NCBI RefSeq assembly: GCF_017873415.1
Contig: NZ_JAGGKD010000004.1
Coordinates: 1 to 64,000, forward strand
DNA length: 64,000 nucleotides
From: Methanolobus bombayensis
GTDB taxonomy: Archaea > Halobacteriota > Methanosarcinia > Methanosarcinales > Methanosarcinaceae
Direction of reading: 5' to 3'
In this document: one piece after another, positions 2,546-24,235 of the stretch
How positions within the stretch are numbered: position 1 is the stretch's first letter
Layout of the letters: each line of letters opens with the position of its first letter
Translations under genes and position numbers: made by a program
Notes under the pieces: model-generated
Told to the model about the DNA's origin: nothing
The model's input: the letters and a program-made list of their open reading frames with translations, nothing else
Databases searched by the model: none

Positions 2546-2562
2546 TACACTGAGGAATTTTA

Positions 2563-3075
2563 ATGGATGAATTGAGAATAAAGGAAAGCAGCTCTTCTGA
2601 AGAGCTGCTTCAACTCGTAATATGCCAGCTTACCAGTGAAGAGTTTGGTATCGAGATATCCAGAGTGAAAGAGATAATTCGTGTTCCAGAGATTACTAAG
2701 ATTCCTCAGTTACTTAGTTATGTAGAAGGTGTGATTAATCTGCGGGGATCTTTAGTCCCTGTGATCGACCTTGCTGAAAGATTCGGTATTACACGTAATT
2801 TAACAGACGAGGATTCGCGTATCGTTGTTGTAGAACTGGATGACCTAACAGCCGGGATGATCGTTGATTCGGTCAGTGAGGTTCTTAGTATATCTAATGA
2901 TGATATTGATAAGGCACCTGATATCATTACAAAAGGAGTAAGTGAGAGATACATACAGGGCGTTGGAAAAATAAACGAAAGGTTGCTTATACTTTTGGAT
3001 ATTGAACGTATATTCACGGATGAGCAGAAAGAGATGATAAGTGATTTTGAAAATGCAGGTGCAATTCCTGCATAA
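2563..3075 (+). CDS. cheW: CheW chemotaxis coupling protein
   Basis: A 170-residue CheW-domain protein, the adaptor that joins chemoreceptors to the kinase CheA in the cytoplasm. The conserved blocks are present: LVICQLTSEEFGIEISRVKEI near the N-terminus, VEGVINLRGSLVPVIDL in the middle, and a C-terminal stretch with LLILLDIERIF. The ATG is preceded by GAGGAATTTTA, a usable ribosome site, and lies 17 bp after the MCP stop, so the two are probably co-transcribed. No cheA, cheY or other che gene is in the window. This receptor-CheW pair may be a stand-alone input to a chemotaxis system encoded elsewhere. A Ser/Glu-rich N-terminal tail of about 15 residues precedes the domain. Confidence 0.95.
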   Translation: MDELRIKESSSSEELLQLVICQLTSEEFGIEISRVKEIIRVPEITKIPQLLSYVEGVINLRGSLVPVIDLAERFGITRNLTDEDSRIVVVELDDLTAGMIVDSVSEVLSISNDDIDKAPDIITKGVSERYIQGVGKINERLLILLDIERIFTDEQKEMISDFENAGAIPA

Positions 3076-4473: not shown

Positions 4474-4829
4474 GAATATACCAGATTTTTTGTTAAAATA
4501 TATTAGAATACATCTGTTTTATACACTTGGTGGATTCACTGTTTGATTTTTAAAATACCTTCTATTGAAAAACTATATTTTATTTTGTTAGATAGTCTGG
4601 TCAGGTCTACTTAGTAACATTATATATTCATCTTATGGCTCCGTTTTTTGAGTCATAGAATCATAAAATACATTAAAGGAAGTTATCTTCTTCATATGAA
4701 TAAATTTTAGATTAAGATATGTTAACTTTGATTCTACGGTCTCCATTGACCATTAATATATTATACATTAAGTAATCACTTCCTTGATAAGTGCTCAGGC
4801 ATTGGTTGATTCAATTATATGATGGTAAA
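4474..4829. other. Gene-free 356-bp intergenic region
   Basis: I see no coding frame or RNA gene here. A weak hairpin (TATGGCTC at 4634-4641 with GAGTCATA at 4650-4657, one G-U pair) lies in the middle. An AT-rich block near 4752-4770 could serve as TATA element for the following kinase. Confidence 0.4.
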
Positions 4830-7370
4830 ATGACGCAGCTCGATGTAAATTCAGAAATTGCAAAAGTCGTTAATGACAGTCCTGTGACAATTTTCATATG
4901 GAAAGCTGAAGAAGGGTGGCCAGTAGAATTTGTTTCTGAGAATGTCAGGCAGTTCGGATACTCACCTGATGATTTTCTTTCGGGCAAACTAAATTATGAA
5001 GATATCATCCATCCAGATGATATTGAGCGTGTATACAAAGAGGTTACCGAATACTCAGGAACACATATTGATAATTTCGTACAGGAATACAGGATATTAA
5101 CGGCATCTGGTGAAACACGTTGTATTGACGACAGGACCATCATCCGAAGAGATGACAATGGTAATATTCAGTATTATGAAGGTGTCATCCTGGATATAAG
5201 CCAGCGAAAACTCTCTGAAGCAATTATTGATTGTCGCAATCAGGTTCTTGAAGCTCTGGCTTCAGGTGAAACTCTGAATGAGATTCTTACGCGTTTGGTT
5301 AGATCTACTAAAAGGATTATACCCGAAGCAATCAGTATCGTCATGTTACTGGACGAGGAAAAGGAACATCTGGTTCATGCTATTTCTACTCATCTTCCGG
5401 ATTTTTATAAAAAAGCTATCGAAGGACTTCCCATAGGTGAAGGTATTGGCTCCTGTTCAACTGCTGTTTACACTGGCAAAAGGGTTGTTGTAGAAGATAT
5501 AATGGAGCATCCATACTGGGAAGATCTCAGGGAAGTTGCACTTAAGGCAGGTCTTAGAGCCAGTTGTTGTGAACCTATAATAAGTTCGAATAATGAGGTC
5601 TTTGGAACTTTCGGAATGTACTTCCGAGAACCACATACGCCTACGCAGGAAGAGATCGATATACTGAAGGCAAATGCCAATCTTGCAGCTATAGCAATAA
5701 ACAACAAGAAGACTCTGGATAATGCACTTGAATCTGAACAAAAACTCAGGATTATTCTCAATAATGTAAACGATCAGATATATATCAGTGAACTTGACGG
5801 GAAAAATGTCGCTGTGAATCAGGCTGTAGTAGATACATTGGGTTACAGTAAGAAAGAGATGCTAAGTACATATCCTTCAGATATAGTTCCAGCAAAAGAT
5901 GTACGCCGTGTATCAAAACTCATGAAGGGGATCGAAACTGACGGAAGGGCGATATATGAAACCGAGGCAATAAGCAAGGATGGTAAACAGATCCCTCTTG
6001 AAGTAAGTGCACGATTTGTTATCTATGATGGGAAGAAAACTATCCTTTCCGTTGCCAGAGATATCACTGAACGCAAAAAGGCTGAAAGCAAACGCCTTCT
6101 TGAAGAGGAAAGACTTGAAGCTCTTGTTAAACTAAATAGTATGACCGGTGCATCATTGAATGAGATCACAGATTTTGCAAGGGAAGAAGCTGTAAGGCTT
6201 ACTGAAAGTTCACTTGGATATCTTGCATTTATGAATGCTGACGAAACTGCACTTATCATGCATTCCTGGTCGGAAAGTGCTATGAAGGAATGTGGTATCA
6301 AAGACAAAAACTTCGTATATCCCATCGAAACCACCGGTTTGTGGGGTGAAGCAGTAAAACAGCGCAGACCCATAATAACAAATGATTATTCTCTTCCAAG
6401 TCCTATGAAAAAAGGATATCCTGGAAATCATGTGGAACTGACACGGCATATGAATATTCCGATATTTGATGGCGACCACATAGTAGCAGTTGCAGGTGTT
6501 GGAAACAAAGAAGAGGAGTACAATGAATCAGATGTACGTCAGCTCACTTTATTGATGCAGGGCATGTGGAGCCTTATTCAAAGAAAGCAAATAGAGGATG
6601 CCCTGAAGCAATATTCCGATGAGCTGAAAATGGCAAATGAGGAACTAAGGTCCATCAGCAGGATCAAAACAGAATTCATTGCAGAAAGACTGGAATTTAT
6701 ATACAGGCCTGAGAACTCAGAGTCCAGTATACTCGATGATGAGATGATCAGAGCCATTGATGACCAGCAGGCAAAAGCTATTAATTCCGTTTTGCTCAAC
6801 TCTGAAAGATTAAAACGCATGGTAAATTCACTTCTGTATATGAGTCAGGAGCAGGCAGGAAAGATAGAATATACCTTTTCTCTGACTCATGTAGACAAAC
6901 TGATATCAGAAGCTTTGATGAATCTCATATTACTAATCGATGAGAAAGGAATTACTTTAGAAGTGGATGTTCCTGACAGGATGCCTGCAATAAGGTCTGA
7001 TAAGAACAAACTGACGCAAACATTGACAATTCTTATAGATAATGCGGTTAAATTCACTCCTGAAGGTGGAAGGATAAACATAGATGTAGTTGAGGAAAGT
7101 GATTATCTGCACTTGAGGATAGCTGATACGGGAGCTGGTATACATAAGGATCTTATACCACATATCTTCCAAAAATTCTACCAGATGGAAGATGCAAGAA
7201 GTCGAATGTACCAGGGACTTGAATCCGGTTTGTACATCTGTAAGGATATAATTCTTGAACATAAAGGCGAAATATGGATCGAAAGTGAAAAGGGTAAAGG
7301 AACAACATTCCACATAAGGCTTCCAATAGGGGCTGTGGATAATGATTCCTTACAACTAATAAAAACGTGA
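4830..7370 (+). CDS. MsmS-like PAS-GAF-PAS-GAF sensor kinase lacking the phospho-acceptor His
   Basis: An 846-residue cytoplasmic sensor: PAS (about 15-130), GAF (140-295), PAS (300-415), a second GAF (430-585), a dimerisation region (604-680) and HATPase_c (720-835). It resembles the Methanosarcina acetivorans methyl-sulfide sensor MsmS and its relative RdmS, which sit beside msr regulators and mts methyltransferases as here. In MsmS the second GAF binds heme through a Cys; Cys488, His534 and His540 are candidates here, by inference. The H box is degenerate: the usual SHELRTP is replaced by LEFIYRP, so the acceptor His becomes Glu622, with Tyr625 close by. The ATP lid glycines are also altered (GLESGL instead of GTGLGL), while N738 and DTGAGI are kept. 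ATG 4830 has the same GATGGTAAA leader as the next gene; a GTG at 4791 is the alternative. Confidence 0.88.
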   Translation: MTQLDVNSEIAKVVNDSPVTIFIWKAEEGWPVEFVSENVRQFGYSPDDFLSGKLNYEDIIHPDDIERVYKEVTEYSGTHIDNFVQEYRILTASGETRCIDDRTIIRRDDNGNIQYYEGVILDISQRKLSEAIIDCRNQVLEALASGETLNEILTRLVRSTKRIIPEAISIVMLLDEEKEHLVHAISTHLPDFYKKAIEGLPIGEGIGSCSTAVYTGKRVVVEDIMEHPYWEDLREVALKAGLRASCCEPIISSNNEVFGTFGMYFREPHTPTQEEIDILKANANLAAIAINNKKTLDNALESEQKLRIILNNVNDQIYISELDGKNVAVNQAVVDTLGYSKKEMLSTYPSDIVPAKDVRRVSKLMKGIETDGRAIYETEAISKDGKQIPLEVSARFVIYDGKKTILSVARDITERKKAESKRLLEEERLEALVKLNSMTGASLNEITDFAREEAVRLTESSLGYLAFMNADETALIMHSWSESAMKECGIKDKNFVYPIETTGLWGEAVKQRRPIITNDYSLPSPMKKGYPGNHVELTRHMNIPIFDGDHIVAVAGVGNKEEEYNESDVRQLTLLMQGMWSLIQRKQIEDALKQYSDELKMANEELRSISRIKTEFIAERLEFIYRPENSESSILDDEMIRAIDDQQAKAINSVLLNSERLKRMVNSLLYMSQEQAGKIEYTFSLTHVDKLISEALMNLILLIDEKGITLEVDVPDRMPAIRSDKNKLTQTLTILIDNAVKFTPEGGRINIDVVEESDYLHLRIADTGAGIHKDLIPHIFQKFYQMEDARSRMYQGLESGLYICKDIILEHKGEIWIESEKGKGTTFHIRLPIGAVDNDSLQLIKT

Positions 7371-7379
7371 GATGGTAAA

Positions 7380-8165
7380 ATGAAATTGGCTCTGTTAGGT
7401 ACTCTTTTTCTATCGGATAAAAGAAAAGATCTCCTCCTCCTCCTGATAGAAAAACCTATGAATATCGATGAGATCAAAAGCACACTTAATGTCACATCCA
7501 GTGCTATGATGACGCAGATAAAGATCCTCGTTGACCAGGGCATAATACTTTATGAGGATGACCAGTATCGGCTCTCCAGTTTTGGTGAGGTGATCGTAAA
7601 GAAGATGGTTCCTCTTTTAAACACGTTAATGGTGTTCGAAAATAATAAACAATATTGGGAAAATCATAAAGTGCAAGGCATTCCTGCAAATCTTCTTGAG
7701 AGAATAGAAGAACTGGGCTCCTGTGAGCTTGTTGAGCCGGAACTCAATCGTATGTATGAATTACCTAAAAAACTTACTGACAATCTTTTACAGTCAAAAT
7801 ACATCATGGAAATTTCTTCTTCATTCAGTCCTGCATATCCTTATAAATACGTTGAACTTGCCAGAAAAGGGGTTCGAATATCACTTATAATAACTGAACC
7901 TGTATTTGAAAGACTTGAAACGGAGTATTTTGAACAATTAAAGGATTACCTTGGGATGGAAAATACGGAACTTTTTGTGTTCAAAGACGAAATAGGTTTT
8001 GCGTCCAGTGTGGTAACAGACAGATTTCTTTCACTGACATTGTTCTATAAGAACGGCATGTTGCACAATCATGCTATGATGAGTTTTGAAATGAATGCAT
8101 TGATATGGGGAGAAGACATGCATAAGTTTTTCAGGAAAACATCACAAGAAGTAGAGAATATCTGA
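7380..8165 (+). CDS. Msr-type methanogenesis regulator (HTH plus FilR1/DUF1724 domain)
   Basis: A 261-residue DNA-binding protein of the family that includes MsrC, MsrF and MsrG of Methanosarcina, the activators of mts fused methyltransferase genes. The N-terminal winged helix (about residues 10-75) has a helix-turn-helix with SSAMMTQIKILVDQGIILYED. The rest is the FilR1/DUF1724-type sensor domain. It starts 9 bp after the upstream kinase stop, with GATGG before the ATG, so kinase and regulator are surely co-transcribed. The methyltransferase gene it most likely controls starts 363 bp downstream. How the kinase would signal to a protein without a receiver domain is unknown; direct contact or phosphorylation of this protein is possible. 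Confidence 0.9.
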   Translation: MKLALLGTLFLSDKRKDLLLLLIEKPMNIDEIKSTLNVTSSAMMTQIKILVDQGIILYEDDQYRLSSFGEVIVKKMVPLLNTLMVFENNKQYWENHKVQGIPANLLERIEELGSCELVEPELNRMYELPKKLTDNLLQSKYIMEISSSFSPAYPYKYVELARKGVRISLIITEPVFERLETEYFEQLKDYLGMENTELFVFKDEIGFASSVVTDRFLSLTLFYKNGMLHNHAMMSFEMNALIWGEDMHKFFRKTSQEVENI

Positions 8166-8292
8166 TATCTACCGATGATACAAGAGATAGTTGCTCCCAA
8201 TCTGATTCTTCTTTTTTGATTTTGCTTGTTTTGGTCTAAAAGTATGTTATTTGAATACTTTTTATTTTTGTGTTCATCAGATTAAAGCCATT

Positions 8293-8319
8293 AATTTGAT
8301 TTAGGTCATTAATCAAATT
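8293..8319. promoter_or_regulatory. Perfect 9-bp inverted repeat, candidate operator
   Basis: AATTTGATT (8293-8301) and AATCAAATT (8311-8319) form perfect 9-bp arms around a 9-bp spacer. It lies between the regulator gene and the methyltransferase it probably controls. The symmetry fits a dimeric winged-helix protein; binding by the adjacent Msr protein is inference. Confidence 0.5.
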
Positions 8320-8342
8320 GGAGTTCTTTCTCTGTGTTAACG

Positions 8343-8378
8343 GCGTTAATTCGAAAGCGTACATTCATCGAATTACGC
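8343..8378. promoter_or_regulatory. Second imperfect dyad upstream of the methyltransferase
   Basis: TAATTCGA (8347-8354) and TCGAATTA (8368-8375) are perfect 8-bp arms around 13 bp. The outer GCGT (8343-8346) and ACGC (8375-8378) extend the symmetry with a one-base offset. Its centre is about 55 bp from the centre of the first dyad, a little over five helical turns. Confidence 0.45.
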
Positions 8379-8528
8379 TCTCACCTAAAATAAGGTCATT
8401 TCATAATATTAATATCATTAATAAATTACCGACGGTTATGATATATAGCCCAAGTGAAATACTGGTATTTGTTAACAGTGAGAAATGAAGGTTCACTGTG
8501 GAAAAAATCTAAATTTTGGAGGCTATTA

Positions 8529-10433
8529 ATGAAAACAGCAATCTTAAACCAATTAGCGGAAGCTGTGGTCGAAGGTGATGACGACCTGGCTGAAGAACTT
8601 GCACAAAAGGCTCTTGATGAAGGAGTTGATCCTTACGAGGCAATTGTAGATGGACTCGCAAAAGGAATGATAATTGTAAGTGACAAGTATGAAAAGGGTG
8701 AAGCCTTTGTGCCACACCTGCTCATCGCGTCCAGTGCTATGTATGCAGGTATGGATCTGCTTACTCCTCATATGAAAATAGAGGGCAATGGAAAACGTTC
8801 CATTGGTGTAATAGGAACAATAGAAGGAGATGTCCACGACATCGGAAAGAACCTTGTAAAAACAATGCTCTCTGCATCCGGCTTTGATATGGTTGATCTG
8901 GGACATGACGTGCCGGTAGAGAAATTCGTAGAGGTAGCCAAAGAAAAGCAGGCAGACCTGATCTCCATGAGTGCCTTGATGACCACTACCATGACCAACA
9001 TGGAGAAGGTAATTGAGATGCTGCAAGAGGAAGGTACCAGAGATTCTCTTATAGTTATGATCGGAGGAGCACCTGTTTCCCCTGAATTTGCAGAGAAGAT
9101 CGGTGCAGATTCCACACATCCTGATTCCATGGAAGCTACTGAGTGGGCAAAGGATGCTGTAAGCAAACTTGCTCCAGCTGAACAAAGATGGAGTGAGGAG
9201 AAGATCTCACTTGGCAAGGTCAAATACAGAGAGATCCTTGCTAAAAAGCAGGTTAAAGGAAAGACAGACATAGGTCTGGAAACTGCAAAGCAGATAGTTT
9301 CTGATTTTGAAAGTGTATCTGTCAAGACAAAAGAAGAAATGACCCACATGGACAGGACACTGGCATCAATGGCTGACAAGAAGGTCGACAGATTGCCTGT
9401 TTATCCTCTGGCATGTGGTGTATTGAGGAAATTCGCTGATGTAAACTACAAGGAGTATGCTACTGATATCAATGCATTCGTTGAGAGTGCTTACCTTGGA
9501 TCCAAATATCTGGATACTGACATGTTCGTAGGTCTCATCGATCTTTCTGCAACATCAGCTGATTTCGGATGTAAGATAAAGTACCCGGAAGATGACACAC
9601 CTTCATCTGAAGGACACCTTGAGGCATATGAACAGATTGAAGTTCCTGAGGTCAAAGAAGGTACCCGTGCCTATGAGCTTATAATGGCTTCCAAAGCAGC
9701 CACTGAGAAACTTAATAAGGAACTCGACACACCATTTGTGGGATTCCATGAAGGTCCTCTGCTTACCCTTACCCAGCTTATGGGTGCGGATCGTGTCCTG
9801 ATGGATATGAAGACACATCCTGATGTGGTGCTTGAAGCAGTCCAGAAATGTACGGATTACATCTGCCAGGTATCTGAACTGTTCTTTGAAGAAAGTGCCT
9901 GTAATGCGCTGTGTATCGATAATCTCTGGTCTAACAATGTGATCATGAGCGAGGAGGACTACTGGAAGTTCGATGGTAAGTTCGTGTATGACCAGCACCT
10001 GCCTATATTCAAGCAATACGATCAGCCTTACATAATACACAACTGTGCAGATGCAGTACACTTTGATACACAGATATCAAAATTCGGAACACAGCTGTAC
10101 AGCTACGCATACTATCCAAAACTAAGGGGCAAGGGCTCACAGAACTATGCAGACCTTATTCCAAAGTATGGTAATGAATGCTGTATGATGGGAGAGATTA
10201 ATCCTGTAGAGTTCATGGATAATACTCCTGCAGGTGTTCAGAAGGTAAAGGACGACACCAAGGATCTGCTTGAAGGCGTGCTTCCTGTGCTCAAGGAGAA
10301 TGGACTACAATCCAAGTACGTCATGGCATCTGGATGTGAAATCCCGCCCGGAGGTCCTCTTACAACCGTGAAGGCAATGGTAGACGTTGTCAAAGAAATG
10401 GGTCCGGACCTTCAGAAACAAATACTCGGATAA
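8529..10433 (+). CDS. Fused corrinoid protein / methyltransferase, MtsD/MtsF/MtsH type
   Basis: A 634-residue fusion. Residues 1-215 are a methylamine/methionine-synthase-type corrinoid protein: a helical cap, then the cobalamin signature DVHDIG with the cobalt-ligand His103. Residues 265-634 are a UroD-fold methyltransferase with the zinc ligand set His504, Cys506 and Cys603 (HNC and SGC). In Methanosarcina such fusions move methyl groups between methyl sulfides or methylmercaptopropionate and coenzyme M through the bound corrinoid; the exact substrate here is unknown. I chose ATG 8529, preceded by GGAGGC; the open frame extends 25 codons upstream but without such a site. A hairpin plus T-run follows the stop, so this gene may be expressed much more than those after it. 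Confidence 0.93.
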   Translation: MKTAILNQLAEAVVEGDDDLAEELAQKALDEGVDPYEAIVDGLAKGMIIVSDKYEKGEAFVPHLLIASSAMYAGMDLLTPHMKIEGNGKRSIGVIGTIEGDVHDIGKNLVKTMLSASGFDMVDLGHDVPVEKFVEVAKEKQADLISMSALMTTTMTNMEKVIEMLQEEGTRDSLIVMIGGAPVSPEFAEKIGADSTHPDSMEATEWAKDAVSKLAPAEQRWSEEKISLGKVKYREILAKKQVKGKTDIGLETAKQIVSDFESVSVKTKEEMTHMDRTLASMADKKVDRLPVYPLACGVLRKFADVNYKEYATDINAFVESAYLGSKYLDTDMFVGLIDLSATSADFGCKIKYPEDDTPSSEGHLEAYEQIEVPEVKEGTRAYELIMASKAATEKLNKELDTPFVGFHEGPLLTLTQLMGADRVLMDMKTHPDVVLEAVQKCTDYICQVSELFFEESACNALCIDNLWSNNVIMSEEDYWKFDGKFVYDQHLPIFKQYDQPYIIHNCADAVHFDTQISKFGTQLYSYAYYPKLRGKGSQNYADLIPKYGNECCMMGEINPVEFMDNTPAGVQKVKDDTKDLLEGVLPVLKENGLQSKYVMASGCEIPPGGPLTTVKAMVDVVKEMGPDLQKQILG

Positions 10434-10435
10434 GC

Positions 10436-10470
10436 AGGAGTGATCACTTCCCCCTACTTTTCCTTTTTTA
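10436..10470 (+). terminator. Palindrome plus T-rich tract after the fused methyltransferase
   Basis: The palindrome GGAGTGATCACTTCC (core AGTGATCACT at 10439-10448) lies just after the stop and is followed by a T-rich tract (about 10458-10469). This is a plausible terminator or attenuator inside the block. Confidence 0.6.
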
Positions 10471-10551
10471 CTCATACGTGATTTGAAAGTCACTTCATGA
10501 GGTCTACATCCATCAGGTAGGGAAACCCCCCTATTCTCCACAAAAAGGGGG
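10471..10551 (+). promoter_or_regulatory. Two further hairpins in the mts-hyuA intergenic region
   Basis: The first hairpin pairs CTCAT/ATGAG and GTGA/TCAC (10471-10501). The second pairs CCCCCT (10527-10532) with AGGGGG (10546-10551) around 13 nt. Neither has its own T-run. They could mark an RNA processing or stability boundary before the next gene. Confidence 0.4.
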
Positions 10552-10601
10552 CAACCACCTCAACCTCCACACATTAACCCTCCACATAAAAGGTGATAAC
10601 A

Positions 10602-12533
10602 ATGAATCTTGGGCTTGGCATAGACACTGGCGGCACATATACAGATGCCGTGATCATGGATTTTGAAGATGGATCGATAATCGATTCCAACAAATCTCTT
10701 ACTACTTACCCTGATCTCATCAAGGGCATAATTAATTCTATTGAAGGTCTAAAACCTGAATATCTTGCTGATGTGAGGTTCACTTCGGTATCCACCACGC
10801 TCGCCACTAACACCACTCTGGAGGGCAAGGGATATCCGGCGGGTCTAATACTCATTGGCTATAATATATCCCGTAAAATTCCTACGGATCATATTCTTTC
10901 CATTGAAGGCAGGCATGATGCCGATGGGAATGAAGTGGAACCCCTGAGCGATCTGGAGGATGTAAAGGAATTTGTAAAAGCGAATCAGCATAAAGTCTCC
11001 TCATTTGCCTTATCTTCATATTTTGGAGTACGCAACCCTGAACATGAACTTACTATCAAGGAGATGATTCAGGACCTTACAGATCTTCCGGTGGTCTGCG
11101 GACATGAACTTTCCATGGACCTTGGTGCTTATGAAAGAGCTTTGACAGCACTCCTTAATGCTCAGTTGATCCCGGTAATTGATGAGTTCATAAGATCTGT
11201 ACGGTCTGTAATGCGGGATAAGAATATCAATTCCGTCCTGATGATGATGAGATGTGACGGATCACTGGTTAAGATAGAAGAGGCATTGAAAAAACCAGTG
11301 GAATCTATTTTTTCCGGACCTGCAGCAAGTCTGCTTGGCGCTGCACACCTGACAGGCCTCAGGGACTGCCTGACAATTGATGTGGGAGGCACGAGTACGG
11401 ATATTTCTATGATCCAGAATGGCATGCCTGCTATCAGCGGTTCCGGTGCTGTGGTCGGTGGCTGGGATACAATGGTCAAGGCAATTAAAATGAATACATC
11501 TGCCATTGGGGGAGACAGTCATGTCTGGATGAAAGAAAGAACGTATATAGGACCTAACAGGGTCATACCTCTGTGTCTTTGTGCTTCTGAATTCCCTTCT
11601 ATAATAAGCAAACTGCAGAATGCTGAAAAAAGCTCCAGGCGCATAATGAACGACATTATCCAACCAACATCATTCTTCATGTCCAATGGAGCAAAATCCC
11701 ATTCGCTTCATGCCTCAGAGCTGGAGATCGAAGAAATGGAAATATTTGACGCCATCACAGAAGAGCCTTCTTCAATATCAGATATTGCTTCAAGGACAAA
11801 TAAGCATCCTCTGATATTCGAAAGTACTCTGAAAAGGCTCATACAGAAAAGATATGTAAGACAGGTGGGTTTCACTCCGACCGACGTTCTGCATGTGACC
11901 GGTGACTATACCAGATGGAATCCCACTGCATCGATGTTGGGAGCTGCGATAATTTCTGAATACACCTCAATGGATCTATTTGATCTCTGTGCCAAACTCA
12001 AAGAAGATGTATCCAGAGGAATTGTACTCAATCTAATTGCACACTGCGCAGATAATGTGGAGAAGGCTGGCCTGGAAAAAATATTGAATGGCACAGAACT
12101 AATGAAATTCACAATAAAGGACCCTGTGGTAATGGTAGGAGCTCCTGTGGCTGCATATGTGAAAGACATGGAAAATGTTATTGATGCGGATATAAGGGTC
12201 CCGGAGTATCATGAAGTGGGTAATGCTGTGGGTGCTCTTGTAGGTAATGTGGTCTACAGGGAAGAAGTATTGATAAGACCCAAAGCACCCGGTAGCTCGG
12301 AGTATCTACTATTCTCTGAAAAAGGAAGATACATGTTCGACAATTATCAGGATGCTCTTGATATGGCAAATTCCCTTGTCAATAATACAGTTTCAGAGTA
12401 TATGTCAGGTTACGGATTAAGTATGGATAACGTCACTTTCGATCTTGAATCCAATAACATCGGAAGTATTGGAACAGTTCCTCTTGAGACAAAGATCGTT
12501 GGAGTAGCTGTTGGTTCTCCAAGGAGGTTATAA
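10602..12533 (+). CDS. Hydantoinase/oxoprolinase-family (HyuA-like) ASKHA ATPase
   Basis: A 643-residue protein of the hydantoinase A/oxoprolinase family. It has the two phosphate-binding motifs of the actin/Hsp70-like fold, GIDTGGTYTDAV at residues 6-17 and DVGGTSTDIS at about 260. Family members use ATP to open cyclic amides, but this one sits between methyltransferase, chaperonin and RamA genes. A role in corrinoid or methyl-donor metabolism, or as an ATP-driven conditioning protein like RamA (also ASKHA), is inferred. Residues of about 375-435 look like a winged-helix insert (IFDAITEEPSSISDIASRTNKH...), unusual for the family. The ATG at 10602 follows AAAGGTGAT; the GTG at 10593 is part of that site. 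The next gene begins one base after the stop. Confidence 0.85.
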   Translation: MNLGLGIDTGGTYTDAVIMDFEDGSIIDSNKSLTTYPDLIKGIINSIEGLKPEYLADVRFTSVSTTLATNTTLEGKGYPAGLILIGYNISRKIPTDHILSIEGRHDADGNEVEPLSDLEDVKEFVKANQHKVSSFALSSYFGVRNPEHELTIKEMIQDLTDLPVVCGHELSMDLGAYERALTALLNAQLIPVIDEFIRSVRSVMRDKNINSVLMMMRCDGSLVKIEEALKKPVESIFSGPAASLLGAAHLTGLRDCLTIDVGGTSTDISMIQNGMPAISGSGAVVGGWDTMVKAIKMNTSAIGGDSHVWMKERTYIGPNRVIPLCLCASEFPSIISKLQNAEKSSRRIMNDIIQPTSFFMSNGAKSHSLHASELEIEEMEIFDAITEEPSSISDIASRTNKHPLIFESTLKRLIQKRYVRQVGFTPTDVLHVTGDYTRWNPTASMLGAAIISEYTSMDLFDLCAKLKEDVSRGIVLNLIAHCADNVEKAGLEKILNGTELMKFTIKDPVVMVGAPVAAYVKDMENVIDADIRVPEYHEVGNAVGALVGNVVYREEVLIRPKAPGSSEYLLFSEKGRYMFDNYQDALDMANSLVNNTVSEYMSGYGLSMDNVTFDLESNNIGSIGTVPLETKIVGVAVGSPRRL

Positions 12534-12534
12534 C

Positions 12535-14142
12535 ATGAGCACTTCATTAGAGAATGTACAAAATATACATTCACTGGACAATATGGATGCCCTGCGTCAG
12601 AGTGTACGTAATCGTATAGGGATCAAAGATGATGTAGAAGAGGATGAACTGATATACCAGATGCTACAGGCGTCCAATGACATCAAAGACCTATTTTCAA
12701 CATCTTTCGGTCCCCGTGGCCAGAGTAAGATAATAATCAGTCCTACGGATGATATTTATCTTACAAGTGATGGTAAGACAATAATTGAACAGATCGATGT
12801 ATTGCATCCTGTGGTCACTTCCCTCAAAGAACTTGCTATATCCATGGACAGGGTATGTGGTGATGGTACAAAGACCTCAGTAATCCTTGCTGCAACACTT
12901 ATCGAGAATGCTGCTAAACTTATGGATTACGGACTGCATCCGACCACTATCATAAAAGGATACCAGCTTGCTTTGAATAAAGTGTATGATATCCTGAACT
13001 ATGAAAGTACACAGATAGTTTCTGATGATGAGCTCTATTCTGTAATAGAAAATGCAAGTTTGAGTAAAGGTGTTGAACCTCATCAGGCCGGGATGATCGC
13101 AGATATTGTTCTAAGAACACTTTCAGATATCAGGGAGCTTCATGTTGGTAACCATATAGATCTGAATGAATATATCAAGGTTATAAAAAAGGTAGGCGGC
13201 CCTTCTATCGAATCTGTCAATGGAATAATTCTTGATGAGACACCTGCAAGACCTGATATGCCGGACCATCTGGAAGATGCACGTGTACTAATGGTGAACG
13301 GTAATGTCAAATTCGAAAGTAAGATCATAAATTCCCAGCGTAATTTGAGAATAGATTGTTTTGACAATTCCGGACTTCTCCTGCAGGGTCAAAAGAGTAA
13401 TTTAAAAGTCATGTCCCGGAAGCTGATTGATTCCGGAGCAAACATCATTCTCTGTGAAGGAGATGTGGATGAATTCGTAGAGGAGTCCCTTGCAAAAAAG
13501 GGTATTCTACTTTTCAAAAAACTGAAGATACGGGACATGGAAATGGTCGGAAAAGCAACCGGTGCAAGTATCATTTCCATCCGGGATGACATCGTTCCTT
13601 ATGATCTTGGTCTTGTCAATGAGGTGAAGGTCGAAAAGAGGAACGATGAATATTTCCTTTTTATGTCTGTCAATGAACAGCCTATATCCACGATTATGAT
13701 ATGGGAGCCTTTCAGATATGGTCTTGAAAAACTTGAGGAGTCAGTGGATGATGCCATCAATAATGCAGCATTCATATTGAAGAATCCTCTCGTTGTCAAA
13801 GGGGGTGGAGATATTGAGTTTGTTCTTTCACAGATGCTCAGAAAGTATTCCTCAACTATTGAAGGTAAGGAGCAACTTGCAGTTATCGAATATGCAAACG
13901 CTCTTGAAGAGATTCCCAGAACGCTTGCAAAAAACGTAGGTCTTAATGAAGTGGATGCGATAACGAAGATGCTAACATCTTATAACGAAGGAATCGATTC
14001 CAGGATCGACCTTACAAGAAATGTCGTTCAAAACTATCCTCCAGTTTATGATTCCTCCAGTATCAAACAAATGGCTGTTATCGCGGCAACAGAGGCTGTA
14101 AGCAATATGCTGAGGATTGATAAGATTGTACTTAAAAAGTAA
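12535..14142 (+). CDS. Divergent group II chaperonin (thermosome/Hsp60-like) in a methyltransferase operon
   Basis: A 535-residue thermosome-family protein, an ATP-driven folding chamber subunit. Recognisable are GPRG at 59-62, TSDGKTII, the ATP loop CGDGTKTS at 108-115, an apical domain with a lid-forming segment, VVKGGGDIE, and EQLAVIEYANALEEIPRTLAKNVGL. The catalytic Asp of the ESVDDA block is kept, so ATPase activity is plausible. It lacks the Gly/Met-rich C-terminal tail of thermosomes and carries an acidic N-terminal extension of about 35 residues. It starts one base after hyuA, with AAGGAGGT before the ATG, so translation is probably coupled. M. acetivorans is known to have extra Hsp60-like subunits beyond the thermosome; this may be of that type. 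Location suggests a client among the neighbouring corrinoid enzymes. Confidence 0.93.
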   Translation: MSTSLENVQNIHSLDNMDALRQSVRNRIGIKDDVEEDELIYQMLQASNDIKDLFSTSFGPRGQSKIIISPTDDIYLTSDGKTIIEQIDVLHPVVTSLKELAISMDRVCGDGTKTSVILAATLIENAAKLMDYGLHPTTIIKGYQLALNKVYDILNYESTQIVSDDELYSVIENASLSKGVEPHQAGMIADIVLRTLSDIRELHVGNHIDLNEYIKVIKKVGGPSIESVNGIILDETPARPDMPDHLEDARVLMVNGNVKFESKIINSQRNLRIDCFDNSGLLLQGQKSNLKVMSRKLIDSGANIILCEGDVDEFVEESLAKKGILLFKKLKIRDMEMVGKATGASIISIRDDIVPYDLGLVNEVKVEKRNDEYFLFMSVNEQPISTIMIWEPFRYGLEKLEESVDDAINNAAFILKNPLVVKGGGDIEFVLSQMLRKYSSTIEGKEQLAVIEYANALEEIPRTLAKNVGLNEVDAITKMLTSYNEGIDSRIDLTRNVVQNYPPVYDSSSIKQMAVIAATEAVSNMLRIDKIVLKK

Positions 14143-14160
14143 TCTTGAGGGGGAGTTTGA

Positions 14161-15276
14161 ATGCCTGAAGAAATGACTTCAAAGGAACGTTTTGTCAACG
14201 CTCTTGAATTTAAAGAAGTGGATAGGGTACCACTGGGATATTTGTGGTTTGGAGCTGGTAATGCGGTACTTGACCGTATGAATGCGAGCATGGAGGATGT
14301 TTATTATTCCGCAAAAGGAATCGCAAGAGCACAAATATTAGCAAGGGAAATGTATCACCATGACAATGTAATGTCTCCATGGGGATGCTTGCTTGTGGAA
14401 GCGGAGGCAATGGGGGCAAAAATAAACATCAAGAAAGATGGCTATCCCTCAATTGCTGAATTTCCTCTTAAGTCTGCAAAGGAATACGAAAATATAGACC
14501 CGATTGTCATGGAACGTTCAGAAAGGAGCAGGACAATTGAAAGATCCATATCCCTGCTCAAAGAACAGCTTGGAGATGAGGTTTTTATTAGCTGTGCGCT
14601 CCTTACTCCTCTCATGCTTGCTTCCCAGTTAATGGATGGGAGCAGAATGTTCATTGAAATGATGAAGGATACCGATAATTTCCATTCACTGCTTGATGTT
14701 CTCACTGACAGTTGCATCACCTTTGCAGATATGTTACTTGATGCAGGAGCAGATGGTGCATTCATTGAGAATGGCGGGAGCACTTCTGATCTTTTCAGTC
14801 TGGAAATGGCAAAAGAGTTTGGCTTTGATTATTCTAAGAAGTTATATTCACACATACAGGATAGAGGTGGTTATGTGATTTCACATAACTGTGCAAACCA
14901 TGCTTTTCATGAACTGGAAATGGCTCTTGAACCGGACGCTTTGAATTTCTTCTTTGGGAATGTTGAAACACTTGATAAGAAATATGGTGTTGATTGTCTG
15001 AAACTTCATAATCATAACCACACTGGTTGCAGCAAAAGATATTGTTTCAGGGATTTCAGAGAGTTCAGTGATCAGGACATATGCCTGATGGGGAATATCA
15101 ATCCATATGCATTCAGTTTCGGGGGAGGAAAAAATATCGGTACTGAAGTAAAGAGTTGTATGGATGCTGCGCCTGATAAAGGTTTCATACTAAGTACCGG
15201 ATGTGAACTTCCATTAAATACGCCTCCGGAAGAGATGATGATTCTATGGGAATCAATGAGATCATGTTTTAAATAG
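14161..15276 (+). CDS. Stand-alone UroD-family corrinoid methyltransferase
   Basis: A 371-residue protein of the uroporphyrinogen decarboxylase fold, in the branch of methylcobamide methyltransferases. The zinc ligand set is visible as His242 and Cys244 (SHNC) and Cys348 (STGCELPLNTPPEE). It has an unusual His/Cys cluster before the C-terminal part, LHNHNHTGCSKRYC at about 282-295, which could bind another metal. It contains no corrinoid domain, so it must use a separate corrinoid protein; the only one in the block is fused to the upstream Mts-type protein. It starts 18 bp after the chaperonin stop with GGGGGAG before the ATG. The methyl donor or acceptor is unknown. Confidence 0.88.
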   Translation: MPEEMTSKERFVNALEFKEVDRVPLGYLWFGAGNAVLDRMNASMEDVYYSAKGIARAQILAREMYHHDNVMSPWGCLLVEAEAMGAKINIKKDGYPSIAEFPLKSAKEYENIDPIVMERSERSRTIERSISLLKEQLGDEVFISCALLTPLMLASQLMDGSRMFIEMMKDTDNFHSLLDVLTDSCITFADMLLDAGADGAFIENGGSTSDLFSLEMAKEFGFDYSKKLYSHIQDRGGYVISHNCANHAFHELEMALEPDALNFFFGNVETLDKKYGVDCLKLHNHNHTGCSKRYCFRDFREFSDQDICLMGNINPYAFSFGGGKNIGTEVKSCMDAAPDKGFILSTGCELPLNTPPEEMMILWESMRSCFK

Positions 15277-15286
15277 GGGTAATAAA

Positions 15287-16909
15287 ATGTACGGAATTGC
15301 ATTAGATGTGGGAACCAGTGGCTTTAGAGCCCAATTGATCGACCTTGAAACAAAAGAAGTAATCAAGACTTCAATGACAATGAAGCATCCGTTGCCAGGT
15401 GGCAATGTAACTGACCATCTTGACTTTGCCATATCAATTGGTGAAGATGTGGCACATAATATAATCATAGATGCTGTCGGAAAAATGATAGAGGGATTCG
15501 ATGTTGATCCATTGCAGATATCCAGGATGGCTGTTTGTGGTAACCCTATCCAGCTCTCCCTTTTCCAGAACTCGGAGATACGCGATCTGGCTTATGTAGG
15601 GAAAAATATGCGGAAAAGACTGGGTATAGATAATGTGCAACGTGATGCCCGGATATTCAAAGCTACTGATATATTCCATGGGATCCTGAATCTTGATAAT
15701 TGTTTGATAATTATTCCGCCTGCCATTGAGCATGAGATTGGTGCTGATGCGCTTGCTATGATTGTGGAGACAGATTTTCTTGAACAGGAAGAACCAACCC
15801 TTGTAACGGATTACGGAACTAACGCTGAGATGGCCATAAAGGTCGGCAACAGGATAATTACAGCAAGTGCTGCCGCAGGACCTGCTATAGAAGGACAGGG
15901 CATAAGTTGTGGTATGCTTGCAGCTCCGGGAGCTATTACTAATGTTGATCTGGAAGGTGGGTTCTGGAGAATATCAGTACTAAATGAGAATATGGATGTT
16001 GTAAAAGGTCATCTTATAGATCCTATAAGCGGAACAATACTTGAAGGGTCGGATGTGGTACCTACCGGTATTACGGGGACAGGGCTTATTTCAATATTGT
16101 CTCTTGCGATAGAAACAGGGATCGTGGTAAGTCCACCTAAACTAAAGTATGGAAAGATCGAACTTGGTGATGGTATCGAGGTATCAGAAGAGGATATCAA
16201 AGAGGCTGGTAAGGCCATAGGCGCTATAAGGGCTGCTCAGTTAACCCTGATACATGAATCCGGTATCGCTTATAAAGAACTCGAAACCATGTACATGAGC
16301 GGTGCTTCCGGTACCTATGTAGATCCTGGGAAAGCAAGAAAAATAGGCGCGTGTCCTGATTTTACTAAGAGATCAGTGCAGTTCGGTAATACATCTCTGT
16401 CTCTTGCAAGAGATATAATTCTTGAAAAGGTTAAACTTGATTCTTTGATAGAATTGGCAGGAAACATTAAAGCTGATCATCTAATGATGGCAACCAGTGA
16501 AACCTTCAAGAAACTCTACGCCTGTGAACTTGGATACTGGACAGAAGGTATGTCCATAGAGATGTACCGAAAACTTTTGAAGATGTCAAAATTGCCAGAA
16601 CTGCCAGTTCCTGTAGAATATCCTGTGTTTGAGAAGAGGGTTACTAAAGATATTAGTGAGACTGGTAACAGGCGGGTAGAAGTAATAGAGGACATCGGTG
16701 TCACTCTTGAAGAACTGGCAGTGGGATGCATAATGTGCCACAAATGTGAAAATGAATGTCCGGAGCATGCGATATTCATAAAAGCTGATGATAATCTCTT
16801 TGCAGAATACAACAGCTTGAAATGTCTGGGAACGGCATGCAAAAGATGTGTGAATGTGTGCCCGGTACATGCAATTGACTACAAAGAGATAAAGATCATG
16901 GAAAACTGA
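15287..16909 (+). CDS. ramA: RamA-like corrinoid protein reductive activase
   Basis: A 540-residue ATP-dependent reductive activase that returns inactive Co(II) corrinoid to Co(I) in methanogen methyltransferase systems. The N-terminal ASKHA part starts with ALDVGTSGFRAQLID and has a second motif VTDYGTNAEMA. The C-terminus carries two [4Fe-4S] sites: Cys481, 484, 487 and 491 (CX2CX2CX3CP) and Cys513, 518, 521 and 525 (CX4CX2CX3CP). It lies 10 bp after the UroD-type gene with GGGGTAATAAA before the ATG. The cluster context makes the fused corrinoid methyltransferase the natural client. RamA is the family name; whether it also serves methylamine systems elsewhere in the genome is unknown. Confidence 0.92.
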   Translation: MYGIALDVGTSGFRAQLIDLETKEVIKTSMTMKHPLPGGNVTDHLDFAISIGEDVAHNIIIDAVGKMIEGFDVDPLQISRMAVCGNPIQLSLFQNSEIRDLAYVGKNMRKRLGIDNVQRDARIFKATDIFHGILNLDNCLIIIPPAIEHEIGADALAMIVETDFLEQEEPTLVTDYGTNAEMAIKVGNRIITASAAAGPAIEGQGISCGMLAAPGAITNVDLEGGFWRISVLNENMDVVKGHLIDPISGTILEGSDVVPTGITGTGLISILSLAIETGIVVSPPKLKYGKIELGDGIEVSEEDIKEAGKAIGAIRAAQLTLIHESGIAYKELETMYMSGASGTYVDPGKARKIGACPDFTKRSVQFGNTSLSLARDIILEKVKLDSLIELAGNIKADHLMMATSETFKKLYACELGYWTEGMSIEMYRKLLKMSKLPELPVPVEYPVFEKRVTKDISETGNRRVEVIEDIGVTLEELAVGCIMCHKCENECPEHAIFIKADDNLFAEYNSLKCLGTACKRCVNVCPVHAIDYKEIKIMEN

Positions 16910-16948
16910 AAAATTCATTTATTTATAGATGAACAAGGAGAATATATA

Positions 16949-17263
16949 ATGACAGAAGTAAAGGTAAATTCCAATATTTGCGGTTTCACTCATGTCGTAA
17001 GAGGTAAAAAGGATGGTCAAAAGATAATTGTTGACATTGACACTCCATGTGAGAAGATAAAGAAAATGTCTCATCTAGAGGTCGACACGATGGATCTTTT
17101 TGATATTAAAGATAATATTGTAATGGAAAAGGCTAAAGAAGCCAGATGTACTGCTACATGCCTTGTGCCCTGTGCAGTAATGCATATATGTTGTATAGAA
17201 GCAGATTTCATGTCGAGTACCCTTGCCAAAGAATCAGGAAGCCTTAGTATCGAGTTTTTGTGA
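16949..17263 (+). CDS. Small Cys-rich conserved protein next to methyltransferase genes
   Basis: A 104-residue protein with a basic first half and a Cys-rich second half: CGFTH near the start, then CTATCLVPCAVMHICCIE. Nine Cys in this length suggest a metal or Fe-S site. I believe it belongs to a conserved domain-of-unknown-function family found near methanogen methyltransferases, but that is from memory. AAGGAGAATATATA precedes the ATG. It lies between ramA and the MtbA-like gene, all in one direction, so it is probably co-expressed. No function is assigned. Confidence 0.8.
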   Translation: MTEVKVNSNICGFTHVVRGKKDGQKIIVDIDTPCEKIKKMSHLEVDTMDLFDIKDNIVMEKAKEARCTATCLVPCAVMHICCIEADFMSSTLAKESGSLSIEFL

Positions 17264-17340
17264 CTCGATTTCTTTAATTGGTATGCTATCAATATTTCAG
17301 TTCAATTGTCAAATGCATTAAATAAATGTGGTTTTAAAGG

Positions 17341-18384
17341 ATGTATATTAGCGAAACAAGATCAAATCTCTCAAATAAATTCCAGGATATACTTGACGGA
17401 AAAAAGGTAGACACTCCTCTTGTCGGTACGGCCACCACATCAGCAATACTTGAGTTGATGGATATTTCCGGAGCAAGCAGACCAGAAGCTGACAGGGATC
17501 CGGAAAAAATGGTAAAACTTGCTTCTTCCTTCCATACAGTTGCCAGGTTTGAGGTAATTCGCATTCCATTCGATGTGACAGTTGTCGGTGAGGCACTTGG
17601 ATGTCAGGTAGATATTGGCACGAAGGCAAGGACACCATCAATAATAACTCATCCTTTTGACAAAGATCCCTCAGAGTTCAATGTACCAGCCGATCTGCTG
17701 GAAAGGGGAAGAATACCTGTTGTGATGGAAGCAATATCCATTCTGAAAAATGATCAGGGATTAGAGGCACCTCTCGTTGCAGGTGTTGAAGGACCTGCTG
17801 ACCTTGCATCCTATCTTTGTGGCATCAAATCCTTTTTGAAGTTGACTGTAAAGAAACCTGAAATTGCAAGGGAAATCGTGGAAAAATGCGTCGATGCCTG
17901 CATAGTCTGTGCCAATACCTATCTTCATTCAGGTGCAGATGCAGTGGTGGTTGCAGATTCACTATCTTCTCCGGAGATGATTGGACCTGATGCATTCAGG
18001 AATATTGTTAAACCTGCATTGATCAGATTCAATGAAAAAATAAATGATCATAGTATTCTCCATATATGCGGTGAAGTTGATAGTATAATTCCGGATATGC
18101 TTGAATGTGGTTTTAATGCTATAAGCGTGGAAGAGAATGTTAAGGACCTGGAATATATAATAAATAGTGCTCACAGGAATAATACAGCGGTAATCGGGAA
18201 TGTTTCAACTGCAGATACTCTGTACAGAAAAGCACCGGAAGATGTCAGAAAAGAGGCTTTCAAATGTCTGGATGCAAATATCGATATACTTGCTCCCGGA
18301 TGTGGTCTGGCTCCTGAGACACCTTTGAGAAATCTTCTTGCCATGGTGGAGGCAAGGGATAAGTATGCTGTAAAAAAGTTCTGA
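17341..18384 (+). CDS. Methylcobamide:coenzyme M methyltransferase, MtbA/MtaA family
   Basis: A 347-residue UroD-fold enzyme that transfers the methyl group from a methylated corrinoid protein to coenzyme M, giving methyl-CoM for methanogenesis. The zinc ligands are His241 and Cys243 in LHICGEV and Cys321 in APGCGLAPETPL, the signature of MtbA/MtaA. Length and motif order match the family over the whole protein. The ATG is directly preceded by TTTAAAGG, which is too close to act as a normal ribosome site; an in-frame ATG 15 bases earlier is followed at once by a stop. The presence of this enzyme beside an Mts-type fusion, which can methylate CoM itself, suggests it serves the stand-alone methyltransferase at 14161. 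Confidence 0.92.
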   Translation: MYISETRSNLSNKFQDILDGKKVDTPLVGTATTSAILELMDISGASRPEADRDPEKMVKLASSFHTVARFEVIRIPFDVTVVGEALGCQVDIGTKARTPSIITHPFDKDPSEFNVPADLLERGRIPVVMEAISILKNDQGLEAPLVAGVEGPADLASYLCGIKSFLKLTVKKPEIAREIVEKCVDACIVCANTYLHSGADAVVVADSLSSPEMIGPDAFRNIVKPALIRFNEKINDHSILHICGEVDSIIPDMLECGFNAISVEENVKDLEYIINSAHRNNTAVIGNVSTADTLYRKAPEDVRKEAFKCLDANIDILAPGCGLAPETPLRNLLAMVEARDKYAVKKF

Positions 18385-19751: not shown

Positions 19752-21458
19752 TCAAACAGAGATCTTTGAATCAATAAGTCTTTTAGTATACTCATCAGAA
19801 GGTGAAAGCATAACTTCGTGGGAATTGCCCATTTCAACGATCCTCCCATGATTCATCACTGCTATTCTGTCAGCAATTTTCAATGTCATGGAAAGATCAT
19901 GTGAAATATAGATCATTGCAAATCCTCGCCTGTTCTGGAGTCCTTTTAAAAGGCGCATTACATTTGCAGAAGTCGAAACATCCAGTGCTGAGGTAACTTC
20001 ATCTGCAATAAGGAGTTTTGGCTGCATAACCATGGCTCTGGCAAGTGCTACTCTTTGTCTCTGCCCGCCACTGAGTTCACCACAATATTTATTGAGAAAA
20101 GCATCTGTACATGGAAGGTGGACGAGTTCAAGGGCATTTTTCGCCATTTCTACACGTTCTTCCTTAGACCAGATTTTGTTAATGTCAAGAGGTTCTTTGA
20201 TAGCATCAAGTACAGTGAACCTGTTGCTGGTTGAATTGAAAGGATCCTGGAACACTATCTGGATTCCGTTGAGTTTGTTTCCATAATTTGCCTTGTTGCT
20301 GCTCTCATTCATGAAAGTTACTTTTCCATTTTCCGGCTTAATCACGTTTGCAAGGATGTGTGCAAGGGTAGACTTGCCTGAGCCTGTCTGTCCGACAATT
20401 GCCAGGACTTCCCCTTCCATTATTTCCAGATCAACATCATTAACTGCTTTTAGGTAATGTCCATCAGGAAGCTGATAACTGTAATTCAGGTCGTTAGCTT
20501 TTAGGAGCTCTGCCACACCTCCTCTATGGCATGCAATTTCTCTTTCATCTCCGACAGGTACAAGTTCAGGAGCTGATTCATTGCATTTCTTGATCTTTTG
20601 ATTACATCTTGAGAAGAAAGGACAGCCTGTAAAATCGCTGTTTGTGTGGATATCACCGGGAATTCCCCAGAGATCCTTGTATACGAAAATATCAGGTGTT
20701 GAATGAACAAGTCCCCTTGTATATGGATGTCTGGGTGATACAAGAATATCTTTTACAGGTCCGGTTTCAACAACTCTTCCTGAATACATGACAGCAACCC
20801 TTGATGCCACAGAAGACACAAAAGTGATGTCGTGTGATATCATCAACATTGTATAACCATTTTTTTTCTGAAGCTCAACAAGAAGATCTCTTATCTCTTT
20901 CCTGGTAAAAGCATCAAGTGCGGAAGTAACCTCGTCTAATATCAGTAATTTAGGATCGCATGAAAGTGCCATTGCAAGAAGTACTCTCTGCCTCATGCCT
21001 CCGGAAAGCTGATGAGGGTATGAATCCATCCATTTTGGATCAAGATGGACAGCCCTGAAAAGATCAGCACATTTGCCCCGTGTTTCATCTTGACTGATAT
21101 CAAGGTGCCTGTTCATTGGTTCCATCACCTGAATACCAACTTTCATAACAGGGTTAAGTACTTCAATTCCATTCTGAAAAACGATTGCTATATCTTTCCA
21201 TCGGAACCTGTCCATTTCAGCTTCTGATAAAGAGGAGATCACCTTTTCATTGTAGATAATCTCTCCTTTGATAGCCGTGTTTTCCGGAAGAAGTCCCATG
21301 ATACTTAGTGCAGCAGTTGTTTTTCCACTTCCTGATTCTCCCACGATTCCAAGAATCTCTCCTTCTTTTATTTCAAAAGAAACACTATCAACTGCCTTTA
21401 CAGTGTGAGTATCTGTCTGATAATGACATTTCAGATCATTGATTTTAAGCAGACTCAT
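19752..21458 (-). CDS. Dual-ATPase subunit (OppD-OppF fusion) of nickel/peptide-type ABC importer
   Basis: A 568-residue fusion of two ABC ATPase domains that power one importer. The first domain has Walker A GESGSGKTT, signature LSGGMRQRV and Walker B LLILDEVTSAL, followed by the oligopeptide/nickel C-terminal Cys motif (CPFFSRCNQKIKKC). The second has GQTGSGKST, LSGGQRQRV and LLIADEVTSAL. Separate D and F subunits are the norm; here they are joined. ATG 21458 lies 2 bp after the permease stop and follows AAGGGATTTGATT; a TTG two codons earlier is the alternative. Operon order is substrate-binding protein, methyltransferase, permease, permease, ATPase. The substrate is inferred to be a metal chelate or small peptide. 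Confidence 0.93.
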   Translation of the reverse strand: MSLLKINDLKCHYQTDTHTVKAVDSVSFEIKEGEILGIVGESGSGKTTAALSIMGLLPENTAIKGEIIYNEKVISSLSEAEMDRFRWKDIAIVFQNGIEVLNPVMKVGIQVMEPMNRHLDISQDETRGKCADLFRAVHLDPKWMDSYPHQLSGGMRQRVLLAMALSCDPKLLILDEVTSALDAFTRKEIRDLLVELQKKNGYTMLMISHDITFVSSVASRVAVMYSGRVVETGPVKDILVSPRHPYTRGLVHSTPDIFVYKDLWGIPGDIHTNSDFTGCPFFSRCNQKIKKCNESAPELVPVGDEREIACHRGGVAELLKANDLNYSYQLPDGHYLKAVNDVDLEIMEGEVLAIVGQTGSGKSTLAHILANVIKPENGKVTFMNESSNKANYGNKLNGIQIVFQDPFNSTSNRFTVLDAIKEPLDINKIWSKEERVEMAKNALELVHLPCTDAFLNKYCGELSGGQRQRVALARAMVMQPKLLIADEVTSALDVSTSANVMRLLKGLQNRRGFAMIYISHDLSMTLKIADRIAVMNHGRIVEMGNSHEVMLSPSDEYTKRLIDSKISV

Positions 21459-21460
21459 AA

Positions 21461-23370: not shown

Positions 23371-23385
23371 AATATCGTCTCGCCG

Positions 23386-24234: not shown

Positions 24235-24235
24235 T

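Follow-up and report, generated by a model that had tools for sequence, protein, structure and literature searches.

We analyzed a 64,000-nt stretch of Methanolobus bombayensis DNA (the window; all feature coordinates are window positions) and found that one of its genes encodes a group II chaperonin of a separate subfamily, tied in its genomic distribution to the Mts fusion, a fused corrinoid protein/coenzyme M (CoM) methyltransferase. The gene belongs to an island of nine genes on the plus strand (4791-18384), which we identify from its sequence as the mtsD-type methyl-sulfide (dimethyl sulfide, DMS) locus of Methanolobus. This type of locus is known, and mtsD itself has been recorded in seven Methanolobus genomes (PMC10762971); the chaperonin is its overlooked, strongly conserved part, and the genomic evidence tying it to the fusion is firm. 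We consider it probable that the chaperonin is co-expressed with the Mts fusion and dedicated to folding or assembling it. In the open literature we found no paper linking MtsD, MtsF, or MtsH with a chaperonin, hsp60, or thermosome; the closed literature could hold one.

Linkage of the chaperonin subfamily to Mts fusions

Using the window chaperonin as the query, we searched 186 genomes of the same order. The matches fell into two sharp classes: those of the first class share 41-81% identity with the query and mostly score 470-940 bits, whereas the ordinary thermosomes reach 26-33% and no more than about 265 bits. When first-class chaperonins were counted against full or near-full Mts fusions, the subfamily was present in 47 of the 53 genomes with a fusion and in none of the 133 without one (Fisher p 7e-38, not corrected for shared descent). 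In each of the six exceptions (G121, G122, G161, G166, G170, and G175), the contig stops at the missing gene, just after the fusion or the HyuA-like ATPase gene; true loss of the chaperonin was therefore rejected, and the assemblies were probably broken by the two near-identical chaperonin copies. Among 57 near-full-length copies from the fetched loci, all but two lie on the same strand as the fusion and no more than 3.1 kb away, and the two remaining copies sit on contigs that start at HyuA. A name scan of the named genome collection placed the subfamily only in Methanosarcinaceae, using patterns that cannot detect the two distant copies described below.

The whole gene order of the island is conserved across the genus, and a core of kinase, regulator, MtsD, HyuA, and chaperonin is shared by nine genera of the family; the arrangement is therefore not due to chance. 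The initial annotation had described a single-direction methyltransferase island, which is real, and had suggested checking whether the chaperonin and HyuA-like genes stay beside the methyltransferase in related genomes, which they do. Six island genes compared with two relatives gave dN values of 0.02-0.12 and dS values of 0.47-1.03, and are thus under strong purifying selection. At MtsF loci, the chaperonin is found with MtsF in the absence of HyuA; one genus (g4) has this form only, and second MtsF-like genes occur directly behind a chaperonin. We detected one loss at the level of a locus, at mtsD of G158, which retains a copy at mtsF.

To place the window locus, we compared it with genome G148, which we treat as M. 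acetivorans C2A. Near 1.02 Mb, G148 encodes a kinase, a regulator, a fusion (80% identical to that of the window), HyuA (60%), and a chaperonin (47%) in the same order; near 5.41 Mb, a fusion (55%) with a chaperonin; and near 5.61 Mb, a fusion (69%) with two HyuA genes and no chaperonin. From their positions and the literature (PMC7374477), we infer that these loci are mtsD (MA0859), mtsF (MA4384), and mtsH (MA4558), respectively. Because the 1.02-Mb locus has the same order and the 80% identical fusion, the window locus was assigned to the mtsD type, and in a tree the window fusion groups with the M. acetivorans mtsD-locus enzyme as part of the D clade. As at the M. acetivorans loci, a fused corrinoid protein/CoM methyltransferase stands beside a kinase and a regulator; HyuA and the chaperonin are shared with mtsD, and the chaperonin is shared with mtsF, whereas mtsH has no linked chaperonin. 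Unlike the M. acetivorans loci, the window has genes for UroD, RamA, DUF6951, and MtaA directly downstream. The premise of the initial annotation that known Mts systems consist of kinase, regulator, and fusion only was therefore wrong, since the mtsD and mtsF loci of G148 carry the same chaperonin.

DMS is given as the preferred substrate of the M. acetivorans mtsD-locus enzyme in the part of PMC7374477 that cites Fu and Metcalf 2015, and DMS:CoM methyltransfer by the window fusion is predicted from its orthology to MtsD. A distinct methyl-substrate pathway had been put forward in the initial annotation; in such a pathway, a novel methyl donor, for instance methylmercaptopropionate or a methylated amide, would be used by the UroD methyltransferase and HyuA. 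The UroD methyltransferase and MtaA of the Methanolobus-group loci, missing from most Methanosarcina loci, would suit such a pathway, as would the membership of HyuA in a superfamily acting on amides and lactams. However, the fusion is simply an orthologue of MtsD, for which reason we dropped this proposal as first choice; in addition, HyuA has no adjacent HyuB, and the same HyuA is found at other methyltransferase loci (PMC11619418). We regard a distinct substrate as very unlikely.

The chaperonin copies of one genome have evolved in concert. MtsD- and MtsF-linked chaperonins of the same genome are 88-100% identical, whereas the MtsD and MtsF fusions are only about 55% identical, and the paired copies usually resemble one another more than they do those of other species (97% within G148, 83-91% to other Methanosarcina). 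In G154 (locus L104), G157 (L127), and G168 (L105), one copy is broken into several frames and another is intact. A single shared product serving both the MtsD and MtsF systems explains the near identity of the copies and the retention of an intact one.

G148 encodes exactly five group II chaperonins. In M. acetivorans, five subunits were described as a unique number, and two of them form a cluster separate from the other three (PMC6420498); the mts-linked chaperonins of G148 are probably this pair, the fourth and fifth subunits. These observations bear on the possibility that the chaperonin is a captured thermosome paralogue hitch-hiking in the cassette, a general or stress subunit that mixes with the ordinary thermosome. 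Such a history would be in keeping with an island that gains and loses genes, as RamA, MtaA, and UroD vary between genera. Yet the chaperonin is retained even as RamA, UroD, DUF6951, and MtaA are gained and lost, near-identical copies are kept at two loci of one genome, the pairing recurs in another class, and long divergence has left the subfamily with invariant residues of its own. Moreover, a transcriptome study grouped MA0086, MA1682, and MA4413 as co-varying Hsp60 genes and left out the other two (PMC5112694). We thus think hitch-hiking improbable.

Signature residues and a second, distant lineage

Sampling of the phylum yielded two further genomes with full-length Mts fusions, G332 and G455, which belong to another class. 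In both, a chaperonin gene follows the fusion (after 12 nt in G332 and 9 nt in G455) and a RamA gene is nearby. Among 59 genomes of this class, G332 and G455 alone carry the fusion, and they alone carry this extra chaperonin. The two chaperonins share 57% identity, compared with about 33% to any other sequence. At a completeness of 96%, G332 contained DsrA and no McrA was found; it is therefore probably a sulfate-reducing relative of Archaeoglobus and not a methanogen, which suggests methyl-sulfide use outside methanogenesis. The G455 genome is too incomplete for a call on lifestyle.

An AlphaFold model of the window chaperonin (pLDDT 71) matches Mm-cpn and thermosomes with a TM score of about 0.8; as the model is of middling quality, no geometry was read from it. 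The protein shares with Mm-cpn and the thermosomes the Cpn60_TCP1 domain, the chaperonin fold, and the catalytic Asp residues, but it is 27-33% identical to ordinary thermosomes, has GDGTK instead of GDGTT, no GGM tail, and a longer N-terminus, and at 336 bits it falls below both NCBIfam thermosome cut-offs (450 and 671). We then compared 59 family copies and the two distant copies with 40 thermosomes from both classes. Both Mts-linked lineages share Ser57, Lys81, Cys108, Lys113, Glu235, Arg239, Glu316, and Glu402, which are rare or absent in the thermosomes. Lys113, which replaces the second Thr of GDGTT, was present in 59/59 family copies and 2/2 distant copies, but in 0/40 thermosomes. Lys81 and Lys113 flank the nucleotide-binding motifs, and one idea is that they supply a built-in positive charge at the nucleotide site. 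The C-terminal tail has a median of 8 residues, compared with 23-39 in thermosomes, and shows no enrichment in Gly or Met. In an unrooted tree, thermosomes were separated from all Mts-linked copies with a bootstrap of 100. The shared residues favor a common origin of the two Mts-linked groups, of which an unrooted bipartition is no proof.

Asp79, Asp110, and Asp406, the catalytic residues, are invariant in the family copies, suggesting that these chaperonins have kept ATP hydrolysis, and they may act as hexadecamers with ATP-driven folding activity. Several observations weigh against a dedicated folding machine. Both distant copies have lost catalytic Asp residues (D79K; D406N/S) and may lack ATP hydrolysis, which makes them a poor fit with an ATP-driven machine. 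An adjacent chaperonin is not obligatory for a fusion, as the MtsH loci of G148 and G080 lack one. Finally, linkage and co-occurrence could reflect co-inheritance of one cassette.

An alternative is that the ring, bound to the Mts fusion, is a holdase, an assembly scaffold, or a corrinoid-loading platform in which ATP-driven folding is secondary or lost. Besides the missing Asp residues of the distant copies, the Lys substitutions that adjoin the two nucleotide motifs of every Mts-linked copy, the missing C-terminal tail, and the presence of RamA in the same loci agree with a scaffold or with cofactor loading. Nevertheless, the invariant Asp residues of the window's family speak for retained hydrolysis, and we saw no corrinoid-related feature in the chaperonin; we consider this alternative unlikely. 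More tentatively, the Mts-linked chaperonins may be an ancient subfamily devoted to one enzyme, with a remodelled nucleotide pocket, and may act as a client-specific assembly cage, by now ATPase-independent in one lineage.

Organization and regulation of the locus

The genes and sequence elements of the island are listed below. The gene families proposed in the initial annotation held for eight of the genes; the last gene had been called MtbA-like and is of the MtaA type. It passes the MtaA model, and its 220 bits against the MtbA model (cut-off 600) rule out an MtbA identity.

Features of the methyl-sulfide locus in the window
Feature	Position	Strand	Remarks
MsmS/RdmS-type sensor kinase	4791..7370	+	Pfam PAS, GAF, and HATPase_c only; HisKA domain undetected
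Msr-type regulator, FilR1 middle domain	7380..8165	+	PF08350 3e-35; 61% identical to regulator of G148 mtsD locus
Candidate operator array, TTAA-N5-TTAA	8282, 8337, 8409 (span 8282..8421)	not assigned	Conserved across genomes
Leader inverted repeat, ACAGTGA-N11-TCACTGT	8475..8499	+	Letters conserved
MtsD-type fused corrinoid protein/CoM methyltransferase	8529..10433	+	Reading frame open from 8454; B12-binding_2, B12-binding, and URO-D
HyuA-like ASKHA ATPase	10602..12533	+	Reading frame open from 10593; Hydant_A_N and Hydantoinase_A
Mts-linked group II chaperonin	12535..14142	+	Reading frame open from 12511; Cpn60_TCP1 3e-113
UroD-family methyltransferase, MtaA/CmuA-like	14161..15276	+	URO-D 200 bits; PRK06252 155 bits of 244
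RamA, corrinoid reductive activator	15287..16909	+	TIGR04270 741 bits (cut-off 500)
Small Cys-rich DUF6951 protein	16949..17263	+	PF22263 82 bits (cut-off 27)
MtaA-type methylcobamide:CoM methyltransferase	17341..18384	+	NF040654 454 bits (cut-off 400)

The true starts are probably the ATGs at 8529 for the fusion, since the fusions of relatives have 634 residues, at 10602 for HyuA, and at 12535 for the chaperonin, where AAGGAGG sits just 5′ of the start codon. The fusion combines an N-terminal corrinoid module (PF02607, 31-103; PF02310, 119-219) with a C-terminal UroD-type MT2 module (PF01208, 297-648). Its translation contains GDVHDIGKN, presumably the corrinoid-ligand motif DxHxxG, as well as HNC and SGC, which we take to be the zinc ligands of the His-x-Cys...Cys type. 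The downstream UroD-family protein reaches none of the family cut-offs tested. RamA, which passes the cut-off of its curated model, has two CxxCxxxC-type 4Fe-4S motifs in its C-terminus. Neither RNA families nor tRNAs were found within the window.

Upstream of mtsD-type genes, TTAA-N5-TTAA was present in 39 of 42 regions, with 85 exact sites compared with 2.1 expected from single-base shuffles, and the array is conserved across most genera with mtsD. No such site was found in the upstream regions of 26 mtsF-type, 2 mtsH-type, and 4 Methanimicrococcus-type genes, or in any other gap between genes of the locus. We propose the consensus TTAACnnCGTTAA as a candidate binding site for the neighbouring Msr regulator. 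The placement of a single array is compatible with transcription that starts at the mtsD promoter and continues through HyuA and the chaperonin gene, of which it is no proof. The stem letters of the leader inverted repeat are identical in seven of seven aligned Methanolobus-group loci and in others including G139; a strong RNA hairpin was rejected, as the whole leader folds no better than shuffles (z -1.0). A sigma-70 promoter scan, with a model unsuited to archaea, gave background levels. In published expression data, limiting MCR raises mtsD about 100-fold (PMC11267899), and depletion of HdrED raises the genes of the run MA4384-MA4394, which begins at mtsF, together (PMC11619418); by its position, the mtsF-linked chaperonin gene falls inside this co-regulated run.

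The sensor kinase shares 53-64% identity with its counterparts at the mtsH and mtsD loci of G148. In an alignment, its Cys501 corresponds to residue 656 of the G148 kinase at the MsmS position, which we take to be the haem-binding Cys, and this GAF Cys is kept in 5/5 aligned kinases, a trait shared with MsmS and RdmS. At 859 residues the window kinase is shorter than MsmS (998 residues in the G148 reading frame). A Pfam search of the kinase gave no match to HisKA (the H-box); MsmS and RdmS likewise combine PAS, GAF, and HATPase domains without an H-box and are encoded beside Mts genes (PMC11784639).

The window also encodes, at 26-3075, a methyl-accepting protein in which five HAMP_2 repeats follow one another, adjoining a CheW; no obvious sensor domain was present in the part seen. 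On the minus strand, at 19752-25864, an oligopeptide/nickel-type ABC transporter operon encloses a gene for a SAM-dependent methyltransferase.

In the HyuA family, the ATP-binding motifs DTGGT and DVGGTSTD are invariant. The protein consists of the HyuA N-terminal and central domains (PF05378 and PF01968), as in hydantoinase A/B enzymes, and in fold it is similar to subunits of acetone/acetophenone carboxylase and hydantoinase. Unlike in hydantoinase A/B enzymes, no HyuB adjoins it; the single HyuB match in the genome lies on contig C6. Homologues occur in 105 of the 186 genomes, often in several copies, both beside other methyltransferase systems and in genomes without an Mts fusion, and HyuA was thus rejected as a specific Mts partner. 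Related proteins of corrinoid clusters include the predicted hydantoinases by mtaCB2 in M. acetivorans (PMC11619418) and HydA as drawn in bacterial glycine-betaine clusters (PMC9768040). The window type differs from these in always lying between MtsD and the chaperonin, and Mts-linked copies are 52-90% identical among themselves, compared with about 50% for others. HyuA is best seen as a general accessory of methylotrophy, and its genomic context leads us to guess that it perhaps has a role in corrinoid upkeep. The suggestion of a maturation unit in the initial annotation is the best reading for the chaperonin, and does not extend to HyuA as a part specific to the system.

Proposed role of the chaperonin in methyl-sulfide metabolism

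In the mechanism we propose, the kinase/regulator pair would sense the substrate or redox state, and the regulator, acting via the TTAA-N5-TTAA sites, would switch on the fused methyltransferase and the downstream genes. The chaperonin, a specialised group II member, would be made at the same time and place as its client, the Mts fusion itself (MtsD, and also MtsF where present), and would fold or assemble this two-module corrinoid enzyme of about 70 kDa when the cell requires much of it. The corrinoid would be held in the active Co(I) state by RamA and possibly also by the HyuA-like ATPase.

Group II chaperonins are generalists, and the bond of a whole subfamily to a single catabolic enzyme would, if true, be out of the ordinary. 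Such a bond would also account for the five group II subunits of M. acetivorans, two of which would be parts of methyl-sulfide systems, and the question is directly testable in a genetically tractable methanogen. The chaperonin provides a genomic marker for DMS-type Mts loci and is a probable missing component for making active Mts enzymes in other hosts.

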